DNA of 51,197 nucleotides, taken from contig JAGAEN010000015.1 in the NCBI GenBank assembly GCA_017613135.1, positions 1-51,197 on the forward strand, read 5' to 3'. Positions 5,369-26,332 of the stretch are shown here, piece after piece; position 1 is the first letter of the stretch, and each line of letters starts with the position of its first letter. A model generated the notes under the pieces. That model saw only the letters and a list, made by a program, of their open reading frames with translations. It did not search any database and was not told where the DNA came from. Source of the stretch: Candidatus Saccharimonadota bacterium. Lineage in GTDB: Bacteria > Patescibacteriota > Saccharimonadia > Saccharimonadales > Saccharimonadaceae. The position numbers and the translations under genes were made by a program.

Positions 5369-7195
5369 TTATTCCACCGTCACCGACTTCGCAAGATTGC
5401 GTGGTTGATCCACATTGTACCCCTTCGCAATCGTCATATAATATGCGAACAGCTGCGATACCAGATTCATCAAAATTGGCGTAAATATCTCTAGAGATGT
5501 AGTAATTTTTACAACACTCTCTACTGGTAAATCAAAATTCTCCACATTTGTCACCGCAATAATATGCCCACCCCGCGCCAACACTTCCTGCACATTTGAC
5601 ACCGCCTTATCATAGAGATCTCCTTCCGGCAAAAGCGCCATCTCAAAGAACCGATCATCAATTAGCGCGAGAGGTCCATGTTTTAATTCACCAAATGCAT
5701 ATGCATTAGCATCCACATACGAGATTTCCTTAAGCTTCAACGCCCCCTCCATCGCCGTCGGGTAAGCCGTATCCCGTCCGAGATAAATCGCATGGTCATA
5801 ATCCTTGTGAGCCTCAGCAATCTTCTTCACATCTTCTACTACTGTATCCAGCACCGAGTGAATCTCTTCCGGCAACTTTGCAATCTCTTCTACATATGGC
5901 CTAAGTGTCCCAGGTTTCACACCTTTTGCCTGCGCAATAGTTAAGCCAAACATCACCATCGCCACCACTTGCGAAGTGAAAGCCTTGGTCGAAGCCACTG
6001 AAATCTCTGGCCCCACGTGCACATAAGTCCCACCATCCACTTCCCGTGCAATCGTCGAACCAATCGCATTCACAATCCCAATCGTCTTAATCCCCTGTTT
6101 CTTAATCTCGCGAAGACACGCCAAAGTATCCGCCGTCTCGCCCGACTGCGACACAATTAACGCCACCGAATCTTTCGGAATATAAGCATTACGATAGCGG
6201 TATTCCGAGGCAATCACCGTCTCTACTGTAATCTCCGGCGTAAACTGCTCAATATAATATCCCGCGAGCAATCCCGCATGATAAGCCGTACCACAACCCA
6301 CAATCACCAAGTGTTTTATCTGTCTAAGTTCCGCCACCGACAACCCAGGACCACCTAAATGCACCGTCCCCGCCGCTAAATTCACCCGGCCACGCAAAGT
6401 CTCCTTCAAAGATTCTGGCTGTTCCATTATTTCTTTCAACAAGAAATGGTCATATCCACCTTTCTGAATAGCCGCCAGATTCGTCTCAATCTCTTCCACT
6501 TTCGCCGACACCGGCTCCGCATTGAGGGTCTTGATTTCCACGCTATTTTTTGTTACGTGCGCCACTTCGCCATCATTTAAATAAATCGCCTGCTTAGTGT
6601 GCCCTACTAGCGCCGATGCATCTGACGCAATCAAAGTCTCATCATGCCCCACACCGATCACCAGTGGCGACCCACTTCTTGCCACCACTATCTCGTCCGG
6701 CGTCTTGGTCGACACCACCGCAATCCCAAAAGTCCCCTTCACTAGTTTTAGCGCCTGTACCACTGCATTCGACAAAGGGTATTTTCCATCTTTATAGAAA
6801 GACTCAATCAGCGCCGCTAGTACTTCTGTATCCGTCTCCGATTTAAACTCGTGTTCCTTAAGCGCCGCCTTTAACTCTTTATAATTTTCAATTATTCCAT
6901 TATGGACTACATAAATATTCCCAGCCTGATGCGGATGTGCATTAGTCTCACTCGGTTCGCCATGTGTCGCCCATCTCGTATGCCCAATCCCAATTTTGTC
7001 GTCGCGTTTATTCTTCGCAAGCTTCTCTTCCAAATTCGCGATTTTCCCTTTCGCCCGAAGAAGCGTCGGCTCACCATCAGCACTTAGAGTCACAATACCC
7101 GCCGAATCATACCCCCTATATTCCAATCTTTTCAACCCTGAAATCAAAAAATTCTGCGCATTTTTATTCCCCACATACCCCACGATTCCACACAT
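5369..7195 (-). CDS. glmS: Glutamine--fructose-6-phosphate aminotransferase (isomerizing)
   Basis: The protein has 608 residues, the usual GlmS length. It makes glucosamine-6-phosphate from fructose-6-phosphate and glutamine, feeding UDP-GlcNAc and peptidoglycan synthesis in the cytoplasm. The N-terminal class II glutaminase domain begins MCGIVGYVG, where Cys2 is the nucleophile, and has RGYDSAG, HTRWATHG and HNGIIENY. Two SIS isomerase domains follow (VGCGTAYHAG, SQSGETADT, SVASTKAFTSQ), and the end PRNLAKSVTVE is canonical. The ATG has a strong AAGGAGG ribosome-binding site. The leader is only a few tens of bases, too short for a glmS ribozyme. Confidence 0.97.
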   Translation of the reverse strand: MCGIVGYVGNKNAQNFLISGLKRLEYRGYDSAGIVTLSADGEPTLLRAKGKIANLEEKLAKNKRDDKIGIGHTRWATHGEPSETNAHPHQAGNIYVVHNGIIENYKELKAALKEHEFKSETDTEVLAALIESFYKDGKYPLSNAVVQALKLVKGTFGIAVVSTKTPDEIVVARSGSPLVIGVGHDETLIASDASALVGHTKQAIYLNDGEVAHVTKNSVEIKTLNAEPVSAKVEEIETNLAAIQKGGYDHFLLKEIMEQPESLKETLRGRVNLAAGTVHLGGPGLSVAELRQIKHLVIVGCGTAYHAGLLAGYYIEQFTPEITVETVIASEYRYRNAYIPKDSVALIVSQSGETADTLACLREIKKQGIKTIGIVNAIGSTIAREVDGGTYVHVGPEISVASTKAFTSQVVAMVMFGLTIAQAKGVKPGTLRPYVEEIAKLPEEIHSVLDTVVEDVKKIAEAHKDYDHAIYLGRDTAYPTAMEGALKLKEISYVDANAYAFGELKHGPLALIDDRFFEMALLPEGDLYDKAVSNVQEVLARGGHIIAVTNVENFDLPVESVVKITTSLEIFTPILMNLVSQLFAYYMTIAKGYNVDQPRNLAKSVTVE

Positions 7196-11377: not shown

Positions 11378-11454
11378 TGGTGAGCCGGGAGGGACTCGAA
11401 CCCTCGACACCAAGCTTAAGAGGCTCGTGCTCTAACCAGCTGAGCTACCGGCCC
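11378..11454 (-). tRNA. tRNA-Lys (anticodon CTT)
   Basis: On the minus strand the acceptor stem GGGCCGG pairs with CCGGCTC. D arm: GCTC...GAGC. Anticodon stem: CGAGC/GCTTG around loop CTCTTAA, giving anticodon CTT. T arm: GAGGG TTCGAGT CCCTC. Discriminator A and an encoded CCA end. Length is 77 nt. Confidence 0.95.
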
Positions 11455-17682: not shown

Positions 17683-18147
17683 ATGGCAACTGCAATAAAA
17701 AAACAGCCTTCCATCGAAGACCTTGCTCAATGGTTTTTATCCAAGGTACCAATGACACACAAAAAATTGCAAAAACTATGTTATTATGCCGTAGCATGGG
17801 GCTATGCATTATATGGAAAACAAATTTTTAAAGATGATTCTTTTGAAGCATGGATACATGGCCCAGTATCACCAACACTATATCAAAAATACAAAAACAA
17901 TGGCTGGGAAATAATAAAACAATCAAAGAAAACGCCGAGCTTTTCAGAAGAAACCACTTATCTGTTAGAATCTGTTTGGAAAACCTATGGAGATAAAAAC
18001 GGTGACGAATTAGAAGCTATCTCACACAAAGAAGCCCCCTGGAAAGAAGCTAGAAAAGGCCTTGCCGAAGACGAACGAGGATCAAATACAATTAGCCCCA
18101 AAATAATGACAACCTTTTATAAAAGCATTTATACTGGTGAAGATTGA
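17683..18147 (+). CDS. Panacea (SocA/DUF4065) antitoxin-like protein
   Basis: This 154-residue protein has the family pattern: IEDLAQWFLSKVPMTHKKLQ, KLCYYAVAWGYALYGKQIF, FEAWIHGPVSPTLYQKYKNN and ISHKEAPWKEARKG. Panacea domains neutralise very different toxins encoded next to them. It overlaps or abuts the following gene (ATG 18150 lies 2 nt after its stop), as expected for a toxin-antitoxin pair. Upstream lies GGGAGTTATATTAT before ATG 17683. The domain is clear; antitoxin activity is inferred from the family and the context. Confidence 0.85.
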   Translation: MATAIKKQPSIEDLAQWFLSKVPMTHKKLQKLCYYAVAWGYALYGKQIFKDDSFEAWIHGPVSPTLYQKYKNNGWEIIKQSKKTPSFSEETTYLLESVWKTYGDKNGDELEAISHKEAPWKEARKGLAEDERGSNTISPKIMTTFYKSIYTGED

Positions 18148-18149
18148 AT

Positions 18150-18626
18150 ATGTCTGGCAAAAAATTAACCGATGTAGGTAACAGAATTTTAATCCCTAAG
18201 AAAGCTGCTATGAAACTGGCAGAAAACAATCGTGCATATTTTCGTTGCCAATTCGATAGTAACATCCAAGAAGGTTATAATATCATGTCGCTAGACAATA
18301 TTAATCATCCTGACCTAGGTAGGCCTTTTAACGAGCAGGAGAAACAAACCCTCCTACGCGCACTATGTAGTTTCATAGATAAAGCTATTGCACTACCAAT
18401 CACTGAAGTCGAAAAACGATATGGGCGACCTCACGACGATAAAATGGATTTCACAAAAGATATTGATGGTGATGGAGAAAAAGTTCAAATCAAGCATTAT
18501 GCAATCGGCAAAGGAAAGCTTTCAAAAATAACAAGAATACACGGGTTCTTCAACAGCCAAGATGTATTCGTTATTAGCAGAATTGATTGGAATCATAGAT
18601 TTCATCAAAAACAAACAAAAACCTAA
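18150..18626 (+). CDS. Candidate toxin partner of the Panacea protein
   Basis: This 158-residue protein (from ATG 18150; TTG 18144 is less likely) starts MSGKKLTDVGNRILIPKKAA. It contains RPFNEQEKQTLLRALCSFID, EVEKRYGRPHDDKMDFTKDI and HYAIGKGKLSKITRIHGFFN. I do not recognise a toxin fold. Because Panacea antitoxins pair with very diverse toxins, an unknown protein directly downstream is the natural candidate. It is convergent with hsdR, 16 nt apart. Confidence 0.55.
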   Translation: MSGKKLTDVGNRILIPKKAAMKLAENNRAYFRCQFDSNIQEGYNIMSLDNINHPDLGRPFNEQEKQTLLRALCSFIDKAIALPITEVEKRYGRPHDDKMDFTKDIDGDGEKVQIKHYAIGKGKLSKITRIHGFFNSQDVFVISRIDWNHRFHQKQTKT

Positions 18627-18642: not shown

Positions 18643-21600
18643 CTATATCGCCCCAAAATACTTTTCAAAGAATTGCAACAACCTCGCAATCACGCTCTTT
18701 TTCTTTTGCGTCCTTTCTCCGCTAAACCTAGAAATCGCAGGCATAATACGATCAACATCCGTTCCGGTTGTCTTCATCACCCCATCGCGAAACGAATTAG
18801 TTACAAGGCGTTTTGTTTCTGCGGGGTTTAAGTTATTCTCTTCAATAATAGTATTAAGTTCATTATCTCTTTCGAAATTTACAAACTTATGCCACGCATC
18901 ATGTATTTCGTTATCCCTTCGCGCCGAATAAAGAACAATAAAGTTATGGATGAGCTCTTTCTTGCTTCTAAGTTCAATGCTAGAATCAACTGCTTTATCG
19001 ATGCTAACAAGAATATCCTTATTAGTGCAATTAGTTTCATGATACTTTGCTACAAGCGCTAGTATATAATCAACATTTACTTCGGCCTGGCGGACTAGCT
19101 CTATTTCAAACACTAAATCGTCATCAATCACTTCTGTGTCTATACCATCTCGTCCTCGGAAATCTTGATACATATCAAGATAGATACTTTGATAATCTTG
19201 TAAGTCGCGTGGCGAAAGAATATCATCCTCAGCAAATTTGTCAAAGGACATTAAAATATTCCTAAGCCTAAGTACCTTACCAAACAGTTTCACGAAATCC
19301 TTTTGATTTTGTTCACCCTCAATAGCTTCTCCTAGCGGATACTTTTCAGATAATTCAGCAATATAATCTTTGTATCCATTTTTATGCACGCCATTTTCAT
19401 CGTAACCATTAAAGTATTCATCGTAACTTTTTAGTAGCACAATTCCGGATGCATCTTTATCGCCAAATAGACCGACAGCTTCATCCACTTTTTTTGAAAG
19501 ATTACGGAAACAGATTATATTACCATATTGTTTAACAGAATTCAGGATACGGTTAGTCCGAGAGAACGCCTGAATTAGTCCGTGCATCCTCAGCTCTTTG
19601 TCTACCCATAAAGTGTTAAGCGTAGTAGCATCAAAGCCAGTAAGGAACATATTCACAACAATCAGAAGATCAATTTCTCGGTTCTTTACACGTAGTGATA
19701 AATCCTTATAATAGTTTTGGAAGGCATCACTTGAGGTATCATAGTTGGTATTAAATAACTTATTGTAATCATCAATAGCCGAATCGAGAAAATCACGAGA
19801 TGGCCGATCGAGACCAGATGTATCAAAATCTTCATCTGGAAAAATATCATCCGGATCATCCTCATTAGCTGAAAAACTGAAAATAGTAGCGATCTTAAGC
19901 TCGCTTCCCCTTTCTGCTAGTTGTTTTTTAAATTCTAGATAATAACGTTGCGCGGCCGGAATAGAAGCAGTAGCTAAAATAGAATTGAATCCATTAATAC
20001 GTCCGTTCAACACCTCTCTTTTTGCATCACCATACTTAACCACATCGGCAACATTCAGAGTTCGACTAAATGAGTAAAAGCGATTGCGTATAGTTTTCTG
20101 ATCAAAATGGTCCAAAATATATCTTACAACTTGAGAAATACGCTCAGGAGCTAATAACGCTCGCTCGCGATCAATAGAACTTACCTGTTTATCAACAATA
20201 TCGTCACGCTCCTTAATAGTGTTAAGGTAATCTATCCGAAACGGCAAAACATTTTTGTCGTTAATCGCATCCACGATTGTATAAGTATGTAGCTTTTCGC
20301 CAAAAGCTTGCTCTGTTGTGCGAAGTTGTGGATTACCACCGCTACCAGCATTCGCCGCGAAAATCGGCGTTCCGGTAAATCCAAAAATGTGATAGTTTTT
20401 AAAAGTCCTCGCAATGTCAGTATGCATTTCACCAAACTGAGAACGATGGCATTCATCAAAAATAATTACCACATGTTTCTGGTATACTTCATGTACCGGA
20501 TTTTTATGAATAAATACCCCAAGTTTCTGAATTGTTGTCACGATAATCGAATACTTATGCGGATTACCATTCTTATCTTTATCTTCCAATTGATTTTGAA
20601 GAATCCTCGTTGATTTGTTTCCATTCGCCGCACCTTTCTCAAAACGATCGTATTCTTTCATTGTCTGGTAGTCCAAATCCTTCCGATCAACCACAAATAA
20701 TACTTTGTCGACACTAGGTAATTCAGCAACTAGCTGCGCCGTTTTAAACGAAGTCAAAGTTTTACCAGAGCCAGTAGTGTGCCAAATATAACCACCTGCC
20801 TTAACAGTCCCTAACCACTTATAATTTGTAGCTATTTCAATCCTATTCAAAATCTGCTCTGTCGCAACTATTTGGTATGGCCTCATGACTAAAAGCTTGT
20901 TATCAGAATCAAAGACGCAATACTTGGTTATCACATTTAGTATAGTAGGCTTATTAAAGAAAGTCTTTGTAAAATCAACTAAATCAGGAATTGTCTTATT
21001 CTTGGCATCTGCCCAATAACTTGTAAATTCAAAACTATTACTAGTTCTCTTAGATTTCTTACGAGCAATCTCACCAAGTTCTTTAACATGACTAATACGG
21101 GTTGTGTTAGAATAATACTTCGTATGAGTACCATTAGATATTACAAAAATCTGAATATACTCAAACAAACCAGAACCAGCCCAGAAACTGTCGCGAGCAT
21201 AACGCTTTATCTGGTTAAACGCTTCGCGAATCTGTACGCCACGGCGCTTAAGTTCAATATGTACCAGAGGCAAACCGTTTACGAGAATCGTCACATCATA
21301 ACGATTATCTCTCGCGGCACCCACATCTGTCCCATTTGTATATTGGTTAATAACTTGAAGGCGATTATTATGGATATTCTTCTTATCAATCAAATAAATA
21401 TTCTTCGTTAATCCATTATCCTGTTTAAGAACTTGCACATGGTCTTTCTGAATTTTTCTAGTTTTCTCAACTACGCCTTCCGAATTTCCAACTATGTTTT
21501 CTGAAAAGAATCTTCTCCATTCTTCATCCGAAAAGGTATAAGCATTCAAATCCTGCAATTGTATCCTTAAATTATCCTCAAGATCATGCGCGTCATGAAT

Positions 21601-21762
21601 AGATAAATATTCATATCCTTGCCCTTTTAAATTCTCAATAAATTCTTTTTCAAGTTCCGCTTCACTTTGATATGACTGCGAATTTCTTTTTTCAGGCTTG
21701 TACTCTGCCAATACAGTAGATAACCCACTCTCAACTACCATATTGTATTTTTTTTCTTGCAT
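18643..21762 (-). CDS. hsdR: Type I restriction enzyme, R (motor and nuclease) subunit
   Basis: The protein has 1039 residues, normal for HsdR. The PD-(D/E)XK nuclease core is near residues 156-172 (YDVTILVNGLPLVHIELKRR, with Asp156 and E170-L-K172). The superfamily 2 helicase motor follows: Walker A HTTGSGKT at 328-335, DECH at 436-439, then GFTGTPIF and a C-terminal RecA-like domain (NMFLTGFDATTLNTLWVDKE, QAFSRTNR). It translocates DNA and cuts unmodified molecules in a complex with HsdM and HsdS. It is the last gene of the operon, 2 nt after the prrC-like gene. Confidence 0.96.
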   Translation of the reverse strand: MQEKKYNMVVESGLSTVLAEYKPEKRNSQSYQSEAELEKEFIENLKGQGYEYLSIHDAHDLEDNLRIQLQDLNAYTFSDEEWRRFFSENIVGNSEGVVEKTRKIQKDHVQVLKQDNGLTKNIYLIDKKNIHNNRLQVINQYTNGTDVGAARDNRYDVTILVNGLPLVHIELKRRGVQIREAFNQIKRYARDSFWAGSGLFEYIQIFVISNGTHTKYYSNTTRISHVKELGEIARKKSKRTSNSFEFTSYWADAKNKTIPDLVDFTKTFFNKPTILNVITKYCVFDSDNKLLVMRPYQIVATEQILNRIEIATNYKWLGTVKAGGYIWHTTGSGKTLTSFKTAQLVAELPSVDKVLFVVDRKDLDYQTMKEYDRFEKGAANGNKSTRILQNQLEDKDKNGNPHKYSIIVTTIQKLGVFIHKNPVHEVYQKHVVIIFDECHRSQFGEMHTDIARTFKNYHIFGFTGTPIFAANAGSGGNPQLRTTEQAFGEKLHTYTIVDAINDKNVLPFRIDYLNTIKERDDIVDKQVSSIDRERALLAPERISQVVRYILDHFDQKTIRNRFYSFSRTLNVADVVKYGDAKREVLNGRINGFNSILATASIPAAQRYYLEFKKQLAERGSELKIATIFSFSANEDDPDDIFPDEDFDTSGLDRPSRDFLDSAIDDYNKLFNTNYDTSSDAFQNYYKDLSLRVKNREIDLLIVVNMFLTGFDATTLNTLWVDKELRMHGLIQAFSRTNRILNSVKQYGNIICFRNLSKKVDEAVGLFGDKDASGIVLLKSYDEYFNGYDENGVHKNGYKDYIAELSEKYPLGEAIEGEQNQKDFVKLFGKVLRLRNILMSFDKFAEDDILSPRDLQDYQSIYLDMYQDFRGRDGIDTEVIDDDLVFEIELVRQAEVNVDYILALVAKYHETNCTNKDILVSIDKAVDSSIELRSKKELIHNFIVLYSARRDNEIHDAWHKFVNFERDNELNTIIEENNLNPAETKRLVTNSFRDGVMKTTGTDVDRIMPAISRFSGERTQKKKSVIARLLQFFEKYFGAI

Positions 21763-21764
21763 TA

Positions 21765-22886
21765 TTACTCCTCCGGCCTAAACTTTGCCGTATATTTTTC
21801 AAACGCCTCTACAAAAATCTCTTTCTCTCTGTCCGTTAACTCAGCATATTCAAACTCTGAAAAATGGCTAAGTTTATTCATTAACCGAATTGCTTCTTTT
21901 CTGTCACGAAATTCAGGCATACATTCATCAAAATTTCTATACCCAAAGTAAAGCTTTGTCTTTTCCAGCAAAACCCTGAACATATTGTAATGACTTTTTT
22001 CCAAAGCATTACTCTTAATTGCTTCTTCAATTTTTTTTCTCAAAAATAAGTGATACCCAAAGACATTTCGCGAATTATCTGTCAGCAAATATTTTTGTTC
22101 TTTTGTTCTTGATAGTATATATGATTTAAGTTTCAAATTCTTATCCCCTCTATCAATCACATTACAAATTTCATTAAAGAATAAAGCGTGATGAGTAGTT
22201 ATTAGTATATCAATACCCGGCTTTTTACTGTTGTTCGCAAAGTTTTTTAATAAATCATAAATTGCCAAAGATATTTTTATGATGGCGGCATCATCAATAG
22301 ATGACACTGGATCATCAATTACAACATATTCTAAGTTGTTAAAAATTTCAGTGCTACGATTATCTTCAATCTCCTGAAGTTCAGCAAATGCTCCTGCCAG
22401 AATAGTATAAAAAACTGACCATACAAATATCGTTTCTTCCGCTTTAGAAACCTTTATCGGTTCAGTATAATCTTCTCCAGTTTCAGTATCTGGCTCTAAT
22501 AGTCTAGCCCTAAATGTTACCTCGTGACTATCTGATGAGAACTGCGGATAGATAAAAACATCACTATAAAAATTTTGGAAGTTCTCTACTATTTGTTTTT
22601 GGAGACCTTGCTCGTTTATAAATTCCACTACCCAAGACATTTTATCTATGTTAAGTACGCAGTTTTCATTGTCCCAAGTAAAATAATCCTGAAAGATAGC
22701 ATTGAAGCACAAACAATTATTTTCTTCAGATTCCGAAATCAGCCTAGATAATCTGGTTTTTCCAGTACCATTAAATGCGAAAATCACACTCACCGTGGTT
22801 TTTTGAGTATTTCTTGTAGCAAAGAGTTCGTTTGCGACTTCTTCTATACTGTTTAATTCTCTATCCCTATCAGAATCAGGTGTCAT
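21765..22886 (-). CDS. prrC: PrrC-like anticodon nuclease (tRNA-Lys ribonuclease)
   Basis: This 373-residue protein is near the size of E. coli PrrC (396). The N-terminal ABC-type ATPase has Walker A FNGTGKT at residues 38-44, Walker B YVVIDDPVSSIDD around 187-199 and an H-loop ITTHHALFFNE near 229-239. The C-terminal domain carries R304-V-L-L-E308 and H341 in MNKLSHFSEF. This spacing (R-x3-E, then 33 residues to H) matches the catalytic Arg320-Glu324-His356 of E. coli PrrC. The gene sits between hsdS (4-nt overlap) and hsdR (2-nt gap), as in the prr locus. In that family the type I enzyme holds the nuclease silent until phage anti-restriction frees it. Motifs and order are seen; tRNA-Lys cleavage is inferred. 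Confidence 0.88.
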   Translation of the reverse strand: MTPDSDRDRELNSIEEVANELFATRNTQKTTVSVIFAFNGTGKTRLSRLISESEENNCLCFNAIFQDYFTWDNENCVLNIDKMSWVVEFINEQGLQKQIVENFQNFYSDVFIYPQFSSDSHEVTFRARLLEPDTETGEDYTEPIKVSKAEETIFVWSVFYTILAGAFAELQEIEDNRSTEIFNNLEYVVIDDPVSSIDDAAIIKISLAIYDLLKNFANNSKKPGIDILITTHHALFFNEICNVIDRGDKNLKLKSYILSRTKEQKYLLTDNSRNVFGYHLFLRKKIEEAIKSNALEKSHYNMFRVLLEKTKLYFGYRNFDECMPEFRDRKEAIRLMNKLSHFSEFEYAELTDREKEIFVEAFEKYTAKFRPEE

Positions 22887-24118
22887 CTTTTTATCTCCTC
22901 AAAAGTTAAAAGCTTATCGCGATAATACTCATATTGTTTATGCCGTGCTTCAATTTCCGCAGGCAAACCACAATAGATGTCATTTGCCAAAGCATCCATA
23001 TTCTCTAATCTATCGTTAATTTCAATCTGTTTATTCATAGCCGGAACGGGAACCTTGATTTTGTCAAAACTACTCTGGTTAAGGTTGCTTCGGTCACTTA
23101 TCGTCATTGTCGCTATTTGTTTTTTACAAATCGCAGAGTTTAAATAATTACAAAGATATTGTGGCGAAATCATACTATCGTTCCTAACTCTGGTCGTTAT
23201 AGTAGTAAAACCAATTGCTCCATCATATTTATCATCTATAATCGCCGATGTCCCAACATCACCAGTATGAACGGTTATAATATCATTCTTATGTAATACT
23301 TTGCTTAAATTTCTAGAAACTAATTCATCAGAAACATATTCATAGTTCTTTATTACAATCCTATTTGGCTGAATGTCTGAATTATGAAGAAGCAATACAC
23401 CCGAGTCTGTTTTGTATTTTGTTACAGAAGTTGCTAAACCTATATTAGTATCAGCAATTTGAGAAATAGTCATCCATTTTATATCCTCATCAGCAAAGCT
23501 AAAAAAGTAGTTATGGTAATATTCAAATTGCTGTTTTCTCTTAACCAGCTCCGCTTCCAGCTCCGCTTCCAGCTCCGTAAAACTGTCTAGCATCCTGACA
23601 ATTTCTTGTTGCACCTCGAGTGGTGGAACCGGAATTGATAGGTCGAGAACTTTAGTCATATTGGGATGTTTAATCCCTGAGCCACGATAGAATGAACTTA
23701 TCTCATCAATCTTATTAGCAAGAACATAATAAAGAAACTTAGTGTCTAGTTTACTCTTATCATTAACTACTGCAATACGGTTGTCTGCTGTCACGAATTT
23801 ACCCTTGAAATATTGGACAACTGGATTACCACCCCAAGGGATTGCTACAACCTCAGCATCAGCTATAGTGTCTGGTCTTAAATCACTGCTATTGGCGAAT
23901 AATTCAGAAATATTTGTTGTAAGAACTTTTATATCCCCTTCTTCAGAAATATACGGTTTCAGGTCATTAGCTAAGTAGTAATAATATTTTTCCACTTTTG
24001 GTTGTTTAGAATTATCGACAGCATTAAATCTTTTATCCCAAGTAGTTAACGACCACAAGGGCTCGAATTTTACGCCGTCTAGACAATTTTCTTTAATTAA
24101 TTCATCAATCTTGTTCAT
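22883..24118 (-). CDS. hsdS: Type I restriction enzyme, S (specificity) subunit
   Basis: ATG 24118 (MNKIDELIKENCLDGVKF) gives 411 residues, the usual HsdS size; a frame from 24238 lies inside the upstream gene. Two target-recognition domains are present, about residues 15-160 and 215-360, each followed by a conserved helical spacer (PPLEVQQEIVRMLDSFTELE and PAMNKQIEINDRLENMDALA). The first spacer has a short tandem repeat, ELEAELEAEL, made by a 12-bp unit. HsdS chooses the bipartite target for methylation and cutting. It overlaps the GIY-YIG gene by 14 nt and the prrC-like gene by 4 nt. Confidence 0.95.
   Translation of the reverse strand: MNKIDELIKENCLDGVKFEPLWSLTTWDKRFNAVDNSKQPKVEKYYYYLANDLKPYISEEGDIKVLTTNISELFANSSDLRPDTIADAEVVAIPWGGNPVVQYFKGKFVTADNRIAVVNDKSKLDTKFLYYVLANKIDEISSFYRGSGIKHPNMTKVLDLSIPVPPLEVQQEIVRMLDSFTELEAELEAELVKRKQQFEYYHNYFFSFADEDIKWMTISQIADTNIGLATSVTKYKTDSGVLLLHNSDIQPNRIVIKNYEYVSDELVSRNLSKVLHKNDIITVHTGDVGTSAIIDDKYDGAIGFTTITTRVRNDSMISPQYLCNYLNSAICKKQIATMTISDRSNLNQSSFDKIKVPVPAMNKQIEINDRLENMDALANDIYCGLPAEIEARHKQYEYYRDKLLTFEEIKR
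23545..23577. repeat. 12-bp tandem repeat inside hsdS (2.75 units)
   Basis: The unit CCAGCTCCGCTT occurs at 23545-23556 and 23557-23568, with a partial copy at 23569-23577. It encodes the ELEA repeats in the helix between the two recognition domains. In EcoR124 a similar 4-residue repeat changes the spacing of the recognised site by 1 bp per unit. Confidence 0.85.
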
Positions 24119-24770
24119 CCGCTTGCTCCTCATAATCATTCGCAATGTCAACCAGTTTCTTCCCTTCGTAACTAAAATGCAAAGTGCCCTGCACGGAACT
24201 GTTTCTATGCAACAATCTCTGCGCCAAACTAGACACACTTGTCACCTCATCTTCATATTTAATATGTTTAGCGTCAATAACCTTGGCTTTTATATTCTTA
24301 TCATGGACATACTCTATTTCGGCTCCCTCTGGAATACCATACTTAAAGAAATCAAAAGCAGGTTTACGAATTCTATCTTCCTCGGCCTCAGTTTCGTTCT
24401 TGATTTCCGCCTGAGTGGCTTTATATTTAACAAGTCTATCGCCAGTACCACTAATTTTTGCTATTGCTTCCAATAAAGAATATGCTTGCTCCGCCGACAT
24501 TTTATAAAATTCCCGCATCCTAGTCTTTCCTTTGAAAGTCTCAATACTCCTAATGTCCGGATCAAGCGTATCAATTAACGAGTGTAGTAGTTTATCAGAT
24601 AATTCATGACTAACGCCATAGCTAGCGTATATTCTAAAAGCAAAAGGCACCGCACTTGAACGATTAAGCGTCTCAACCCTGTTTTGCACATCATCTGCAT
24701 AACCAATTTTCACATATTGAGGAAATGAAGGGTTAGTTAATATGTAAATATATCCTTTGATTTCACTCAT
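24105..24770 (-). CDS. GIY-YIG (T5orf172) nuclease-like protein with RAMA/DUF4357-like C-terminus
   Basis: In this 221-residue protein, GYIYILTNPSFPQYVKIGYA at residues 6-25 is the GIY-YIG/T5orf172 core (GYIYIL...VKIGYA), with NRVETLN after it and REFYKM near residue 88. The C-terminal part (YGIPEGAEIEYVHDKNIKAK, IKYEDEVTSVSSLAQRLL) resembles RAMA/DUF4357 modules often found with restriction genes. It sits inside the type I operon between hsdM (2-nt gap) and hsdS (14-nt overlap), so it is cotranslated with them. Whether it cuts DNA or helps recognition is unknown. Confidence 0.8.
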   Translation of the reverse strand: MSEIKGYIYILTNPSFPQYVKIGYADDVQNRVETLNRSSAVPFAFRIYASYGVSHELSDKLLHSLIDTLDPDIRSIETFKGKTRMREFYKMSAEQAYSLLEAIAKISGTGDRLVKYKATQAEIKNETEAEEDRIRKPAFDFFKYGIPEGAEIEYVHDKNIKAKVIDAKHIKYEDEVTSVSSLAQRLLHRNSSVQGTLHFSYEGKKLVDIANDYEEQADEQD

Positions 24771-24772
24771 AA

Positions 24773-26332
24773 TTATTCTCCAATCTCCTCAATTATTTTA
24801 TCAATTCTCACACGCAACTCCTGTTCATGCTCTACAATTTTTTTAATCTCGCTATTTAGCACTTTTATATCAATTTTTTCTTTCGTATCTTCCGGCTCAA
24901 CATATGTAGAAACCGATAAATTATAATTCTGCTCAGCTATTTCCGAATTCGGCACCAAACGCACTATATTCTCAACATCACTTCTCTCTGAATAATACTT
25001 CATTATTTTTTCTATATTTACATCACTCAACTTATTGCTGTTCGTAACTTTTATGCATTCTTTGCTTGCATCAATGAATAGTGTAGAATTCTCGGATTTG
25101 TTTTTCCTAAGCACCATTATGCAAGTCGCAATGCCAGTACCATAAAAGAGATTATCGGGAAGCTGTATCACTGCATCCACAAAGTTATTGTCCACTAAGT
25201 ATTTACGAATTTTCTGCTCCGCTCCGCCCCGATACATAATACCTGGGAAACAAACAATCGCCGCTGCCCCATTTGTTGCAAGCCAAGAAAGCGAGTGCAT
25301 AATAAATGCAAGGTCTGCTTTAGATTTCGGTGCAAGTACGCCAGCAGGAGCAAAACGCGGATCGTTAATTAATGTAGTATTGTCGTCCCCTTCCCAATGA
25401 ATAGAATATGGTGGATTAGACACTATGGCTTCAAATGGCTCATCATCCCAGTGCTGTGGGTCAATTAATGTATCACCATGAGCAATATCAAATTTGTCAT
25501 AATCAATGTCGTGCAAGAACATATTGATGCGGCAAAGATTATAAGTAGTGATGTTGATTTCTTGCCCAAAGAACCCATTGCGAACTTTATCTTTTCCGAG
25601 AATTTTAGCCGACTTCAAAAGAAGTGACCCAGAACCGCAAGCCGGATCATAGACCTTATTTATTTCAGTTTTACCAAAAGTAGCCAGTCTAGCCAATAGC
25701 TCTGAAACTTCCTGTGGAGTAAAAAATTCACCGCCAGATTTACCAGCACTTGATGCATACATGCCCATTAAGTATTCATAAGCATCACCAAAAGTGTCAA
25801 TCGTATTATCCTGGTAGTTCCCTAACTTCATTTCCCCAACACCATCCATTAACTGAATCAGTCGTTTATTACGATTAGCCACCGAATTTCCAAGTTTTAT
25901 ACTATTCACATCTAAATCATCAAAGAGCCCTTTCATATCATCTTCTGATTCATGACCTTTTGCAGAATCCTCAATGCTATTTAATGCTCTTTCCAATGTT
26001 TCGTTTAGATTATCATCATTCTTTGCCCTTTTCCGAACATTCTCAAACAACTGACTTGGAAGAATAAAGAAGCCCTTAGTGTTCACCATGTCTTCACGAA
26101 TAGTTTCTGCCTGCTCATCAGAAATATCAGCATAATTGAAATTTTCGTTACCAGCCCGATGTTCTTCATTGTTTATGTAGTTAGTTAGATTTTCGGAAAT
26201 AAACCGATAGAATAGCATACCTAGGACATACTGCTTAAAATCCCAACCATCAACAGAACCACGCAAGGTATTGGCCATCGCCCATATTGTCCGATGGAGC
26301 TCAGCTCGCTCCTGCTCTTTTCTAGAATCCAT
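24773..26332 (-). CDS. hsdM: Type I restriction enzyme, M (methyltransferase) subunit
   Basis: The protein has 519 residues, normal for HsdM. N-terminal domain: [20 protein letters not shown]. Methylase core: [16 protein letters not shown], then the S-adenosylmethionine motif [10 protein letters not shown] at 229-238 and the catalytic NPPY at 306-309, which marks N6-adenine methylation. It is the first gene of the operon hsdM, GIY-YIG, hsdS, prrC-like, hsdR, all junctions being overlaps or 2-nt gaps. Its promoter region carries an 8-bp inverted repeat around the -10 box. Confidence 0.97.

Follow-up and report, generated by a model that had tools for sequence, protein, structure and literature searches.

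The window analysed here is a stretch of 51,197 nucleotides, positions 1 to 51,197 of contig JAGAEN010000015.1 (assembly GCA_017613135.1), from a Candidatus Saccharimonadota bacterium whose genome measures 0.73 Mb and is 97% complete. Its minus strand carries a type I restriction-modification (R-M) operon of five genes in the order hsdM - T5orf172 - hsdS - prrC - hsdR. The hsdM gene (24773..26332) encodes a methyltransferase of 519 aa (TIGR00497, 3.9e-223) and is followed by T5orf172 (24105..24770), which encodes a GIY-YIG-like accessory protein of 221 aa matched by Pfam (3.3e-12) and by the PADLOC candidate PDC-S57 (1.2e-89). The specificity subunit, of 411 aa (Pfam Methylase_S, 2.2e-28), is encoded by hsdS (22883..24118, ATG start at 24118), and the restriction subunit, of 1039 aa (TIGR00348, 7.1e-165), by hsdR (18643..21762). 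Since HsdR matches the Pfam family EcoR124_C (1e-64), we describe the enzyme as EcoR124-like, or type IC-like, a class also reported for EcoprrI (PMC2610378).

Between hsdS and hsdR lies prrC, an uninterrupted minus-strand frame (21765-22886) that begins with an ATG at 22886 and encodes 373 aa; translation of the plus strand over 21765-22886 gives no open frame and many stops. The start of prrC and the stop of hsdS share 4 nt (ATGA), and prrC ends 2 nt ahead of the hsdR start. An earlier note on this DNA had recognized the gene order of the prr locus, with prrC between hsdS and hsdR, and the coordinates bear this out. The arrangement recurs in relatives: at 69 of the 80 homologous loci prrC has hsdM before it and hsdR after it, all three on one strand, and annotated plasmids show this order with hsdS next to prrC.

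PADLOC, Pfam, sequence alignments and an AlphaFold2 model all contribute to the assignment of the prrC product as a PrrC-family anticodon nuclease, with an ABC ATPase and a C-terminal HEPN-like RNase domain. The PADLOC PrrC model spans residues 11-370 with E=5.5e-82, and Pfam reports AAA_13 (1.3e-13); the NCBIfam scan assigned no family. A tblastn search matched 112 plasmid records, several of which bear the annotation ‘anticodon nuclease’; the homologues so named have 34-36% identity over ~90% of the length. The Walker A motif FNGTGKT (residues 38-44, 22755..22775) and the residues R304 (codon 21975..21977), E308 (21963..21965) and H341 (21864..21866), all named in the earlier note, are found in the translated ORF at the positions it gave. 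For comparison we used the E. coli PrrC on CP057689, a protein of 396 aa in which D287, R320, E324 and H356 stand at their published numbers (PMC2610378; PMC3014915). R304, E308 and H341 align with Arg320, Glu324 and His356 without variation, both in a 13-sequence alignment and in an 80-sequence alignment of homologues (80 of 80 for each residue). The spacing is close to that in E. coli, as had been claimed, with R to E at +4 in both proteins and E to H at +33 here versus +32.

Other functional positions are similarly conserved. Within Walker A, G42, K43 and T44 are invariant in the 13-sequence alignment, and K43, S147, E150, D191 (Walker B) and H232 (switch His) are invariant in the 80-sequence one. 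The ABC signature reads VSKAEE, with Ala at the signature Gly position, where 73 of the 80 sequences have Gly, six Ala and one Ser. R334 (21885..21887), an Arg in 73 of the 80, completes the Rx6H motif of HEPN domains as R334-x6-H341; this motif and the HEPN assignment have been published (PMC3710099). The length fits the range of ~350-440 aa for PrrC, and DSSP of the model gives no long coiled coil. Judged by its sequence, the protein is a full-length, true PrrC, which would be expected to cleave tRNA.

The full-length protein was modelled by AlphaFold2 on a 64-sequence alignment with a pLDDT of 87.9 and a pTM of 0.83. The N-terminal two thirds of the model form an ABC domain for which Rad50 heads are the best match (VIA-align Z 13.1, 210 residues). 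Searched by sequence, the PDB yielded no match to the single protein and only a Rad50 to the profile, and hence no solved PrrC structure. The C-terminal 101 residues were also modelled alone (pLDDT 87.6). The earlier note had called for structure prediction of the C-terminal region, and the outcome is divided: VIA-align places a HEPN toxin first (Z 8.7, 100 residues, 3.5 A) and lists other HEPN entries among its first 13, whereas Foldseek on the C-domain alone returned nothing at E < 0.001 and ranked HEPN low. Because of this low, non-significant rank, and because the Z score sits in the range where helical bundles can match by mere arrangement, support for the fold is moderate. With the VIA-align match, the Rx6H motif and the published assignment taken together, we identify the C-domain with moderate confidence as a predicted HEPN RNase.

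The E. coli PrrC/EcoprrI system (prr locus, CTr5X) shares with the window an ABC ATPase fused to a C-terminal nuclease, the R-x3-E...H triad, the hsdM-hsdS-prrC-hsdR order and a type IC-like HsdR (EcoR124_C). The two PrrC proteins are ~35% identical, and that of the window is shorter in its N-terminal part. They differ in the signature (SKAEE in the window, SKGEE in E. coli), in the stretch that reads FNAIFQDYFTWDNE in the window and YNAFTEDLFYWDND in E. coli, and in the recognition loop (DNSRN versus GDSNK), and in the window operon T5orf172 is an additional gene separating hsdM from hsdS. A further relative, PrrC170 of Klebsiella quasipneumoniae, is R-M-linked, is ~35% identical to EcoPrrC, targets tRNA-Lys in E. 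coli and restricts T1 and T7 (PMC11555353); its genes are ordered differently, as hsdR-hsdS-prrC-hsdM.

Members of the PrrC family are held latent on the Hsd complex and are freed when restriction is blocked; they need GTP hydrolysis and DNA, and they cleave tRNA on the 5' side of the wobble base (PMC3014915). We think it quite likely that the window encodes a latent anticodon nuclease of this kind, co-translated with type IC-like HsdM/S/R, acquired by horizontal transfer in the gut and kept by selection. PrrC would be made along with HsdM/S/R and would combine a Rad50-like ABC nucleotide sensor with a HEPN RNase domain; by homology, it would sit docked and inactive on the Hsd complex. A phage block of restriction, or an equivalent signal, would lead to nucleotide hydrolysis and unlock the HEPN domain, whereupon R304, E308 and H341, together with R334, would cut the anticodon loop of a host tRNA, most likely tRNA-Lys, and translation would stop. 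The operon would most likely have reached the Saccharibacterium by horizontal transfer in the gut, ultimately from Bacillota-like donors.

PrrC loci are common: a scan of one genome per species gave at least 533 relatives. Among the best 80 of these, the closest, at 96% identity, comes from Candidatus Saccharibacteria bacterium RGIG2476 (L079) of goat jejunum, and the next, at 49%, from a Bacillales MAG (L080). When 295 genomes of the window's family were scanned, no true PrrC was found in the 294 others; four genomes of genus g11 gave weak matches that appeared chance-like on inspection. No other true PrrC was found among 380 genomes sampled across the phylum, where the remaining matches were RloC-sized ORFs of ~720-880 aa, and phage records and viral contigs yielded no relative. 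Of the 295 family genomes, 25 have an HsdR relative, and we read 12 related hsd operons in the family, including that of same-genus G116 (HsdR 79% identical), none of which contains prrC.

The earlier note had rightly placed the system in a small-genome CPR bacterium: the host is a Saccharibacterium of 0.73 Mb, probably parasitic. Its view that such a system is unexpected in small genomes stands only in part: the horizontal acquisition of type I R-M systems on islands by Patescibacteria is already known (PMC12455944), and a second CPR-like genome among the hits carries prrC. This is a 1.1-Mb MAG (QKEV01000015.1, isolate SZUA-485; L083) with prrC inside a full hsd operon, in which neither MnmG above cut-off nor a ribosomal protein L30 match was found; it is possibly a second, independent CPR case, by inferred placement. 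We found no report of PrrC together with Saccharibacteria or Patescibacteria among the open-access papers searched. The enzyme is of a known type, in a lineage where it is rare. R-M-coupled tRNA suicide would thereby be extended to Saccharibacteria, and a genome of ~0.73 Mb would be able to acquire and maintain a second-line defence.

The earlier note held that the organism ‘keeps’ the system, and here the evidence points the other way. Because no true PrrC was found in the 294 other family genomes or in the 12 related hsd operons, the operon was most likely acquired by the host lineage rather than retained from an ancestor. Its genes have 33-38% GC against 43% in their surroundings, and hsdM, prrC and hsdR are ~93% identical to those of RGIG2476, compared with ~76% for the shared flanking genes, which together point to recent acquisition. 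GC content alone was rejected as proof of foreign origin, the whole operon being AT-rich and prrC only slightly more so. In the tree, the window and RGIG2476 proteins group with the Bacillales copy (SH-aLRT 97) outside the proteobacterial and Bacteroidota bulk, but through a long-branch join, which counts against the proposed donor. The simplest reading, we infer, is that the cassette has spread in the gut and passed recently from one Saccharibacterium to another, although the relatives may instead have lost prrC.

The low GC content and the Bacillales MAG as the source of the next-best PrrC could also be explained if the contig were a binning artefact and the operon came from a gut Firmicute. 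This is very improbable, given that HsdR and HsdM are 79% and 85% identical to those of same-genus G116, and that an independent assembly of a Saccharibacterium has the 96%-identical prrC in the same operon, on a contig of 89 kb where flanking genes match window genes. A little less improbable, though still a poor prospect, is that prrC is a functionless, decaying passenger of the R-M operon, as its rarity in the family and its absence from the related hsd operons might suggest. The frame is intact and all catalytic motifs are present, and the 96%-identical copy differs from it by 55 synonymous versus 16 non-synonymous changes; the resulting dN/dS of 0.058 (hsdR 0.034, hsdM 0.021) leads us to conclude that prrC is maintained by selection. 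An RloC-type nuclease, autonomous, zinc-hook-bearing and wobble-excising, would share with PrrC the ABC and HEPN anticodon nuclease domains and the same triad, and it draws some encouragement from the AAA_13 match and from weak matches to the PADLOC PDC-S06 models (~730 aa). RloC proteins, however, have 658-897 aa with a coiled coil and a zinc hook (PMC2610378) and are mostly not linked to R-M genes. The architecture of the window protein, with its 373 aa and neither a long coiled-coil nor a zinc-hook CXXC insert, refutes this identity, the locus is hsd-linked, and in PADLOC the E-value of the PrrC model is more than 60 orders of magnitude better than that of any other model, so that RloC has the slightest probability of all.

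The substrate calls for a closer weighing. The host genome has two tRNA-Lys genes, tRNA-Lys(CUU) within the window (11378..11454, minus strand), a potential substrate, and tRNA-Lys(UUU) at G000:C8:3955-4028. The latter has the loop CUUUUAA, which is identical to its E. coli counterpart and speaks for an unchanged target; by homology, tRNA-Lys is most likely what the enzyme would cut, and PrrC170, which is about as diverged, targets tRNA-Lys. The host genome has MnmA but lacks MnmG, and it gives no match that passes the MnmE cut-off; none of 40 relatives of the host has MnmG above cut-off, and MnmG is present in 38 of the 41 PrrC-bearing genomes tested. EcoPrrC cleaves tRNA-Lys poorly when either wobble modification is missing, an effect reversed by the substitutions D287Q/H/N (PMC3014915). 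With MnmG absent and no convincing MnmE, tRNA-Lys in the host therefore probably lacks the mnm5 group that EcoPrrC needs for efficient cutting.

The region of E. coli Asp287 corresponds to the loop D270-N-S-R-N274 (22065..22079, minus strand), which matches the tRNA-recognition loop and in which the counterpart of Asp287 is ambiguous. The loop reads YLLTDNSRNVFGYHL in the window protein and YSLNKKGDSPFGYHL in its nearest outside homologue, the Bacillales protein, whose Asp falls on R273 in an ungapped alignment; the RGIG2476 protein also has Arg in this column. D270 lies three residues before R273, the loop varies in length among homologues, and D270 may take the place of Asp287 when DNSR of the window is set against DSNK of E. 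coli. We also considered whether loss of MnmG goes with loss of the Asp287 counterpart and found the coupling unsupported, because the genomes in which L083 and L087 lie have no MnmG above cut-off and both PrrC proteins keep the Asp. The missing MnmG and the Arg at R273 leave room for an active PrrC whose main target is not an E. coli-like mnm5s2U34 tRNA-Lys but a hypomodified tRNA-Lys or another tRNA; in view of D270, the two Asp-keeping genomes and the tRNA-Lys(UUU) loop, we hold this to be rather unlikely. Slightly more doubtful is the specific proposal that the enzyme has been re-tuned to a lineage without MnmEG wobble modification and acts on tRNA-Lys with a hypomodified s2U34, or on another tRNA; if true, it would be nature's equivalent of the Asp287 mutants made in the laboratory. 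The window protein offers a concrete test of PrrC recognition where the mnm5 wobble modification is missing.

Several observations concern the rest of the operon. RGIG2476 shares the five-gene layout, including T5orf172, and has another hsdS specificity. Between the two operons, hsdS (22883-24118 in the window, 6811-8004 in L079) and T5orf172 (24105-24770 and 6162-6824) diverge far more than hsdM, prrC and hsdR, T5orf172 having 48% amino acid identity versus 96-98%; this looks like the pattern that an exchange of the operon's middle part would leave. Across the hsd operons of the family (L189-L200), the slot between hsdM and hsdS varies, holding T5orf172/PDC-S57 (L189), PDC-S18 with DUF5655 (L193, L194), Bro-N PDC-S13 (L200) or a GajA/GajB-like pair (L198), and the hsd operon resembles a hub at which defence genes can be swapped. 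Between hsdS and hsdR, at the position of prrC in the window, L190 has an ORF of 223 aa (L190:8732-9403, plus strand) and L195 one of 195 aa (L195:3910-4497, minus strand), neither with a convincing match in Pfam or PADLOC. Next to the window operon (17683-18626, plus strand), a SocA/Panacea-domain gene overlaps a gene of the MAG6450 family; the two converge on hsdR and are possibly a toxin-antitoxin pair. By eye, a seemingly similar pair occupies the same place in L079 (12953-14075, plus strand).
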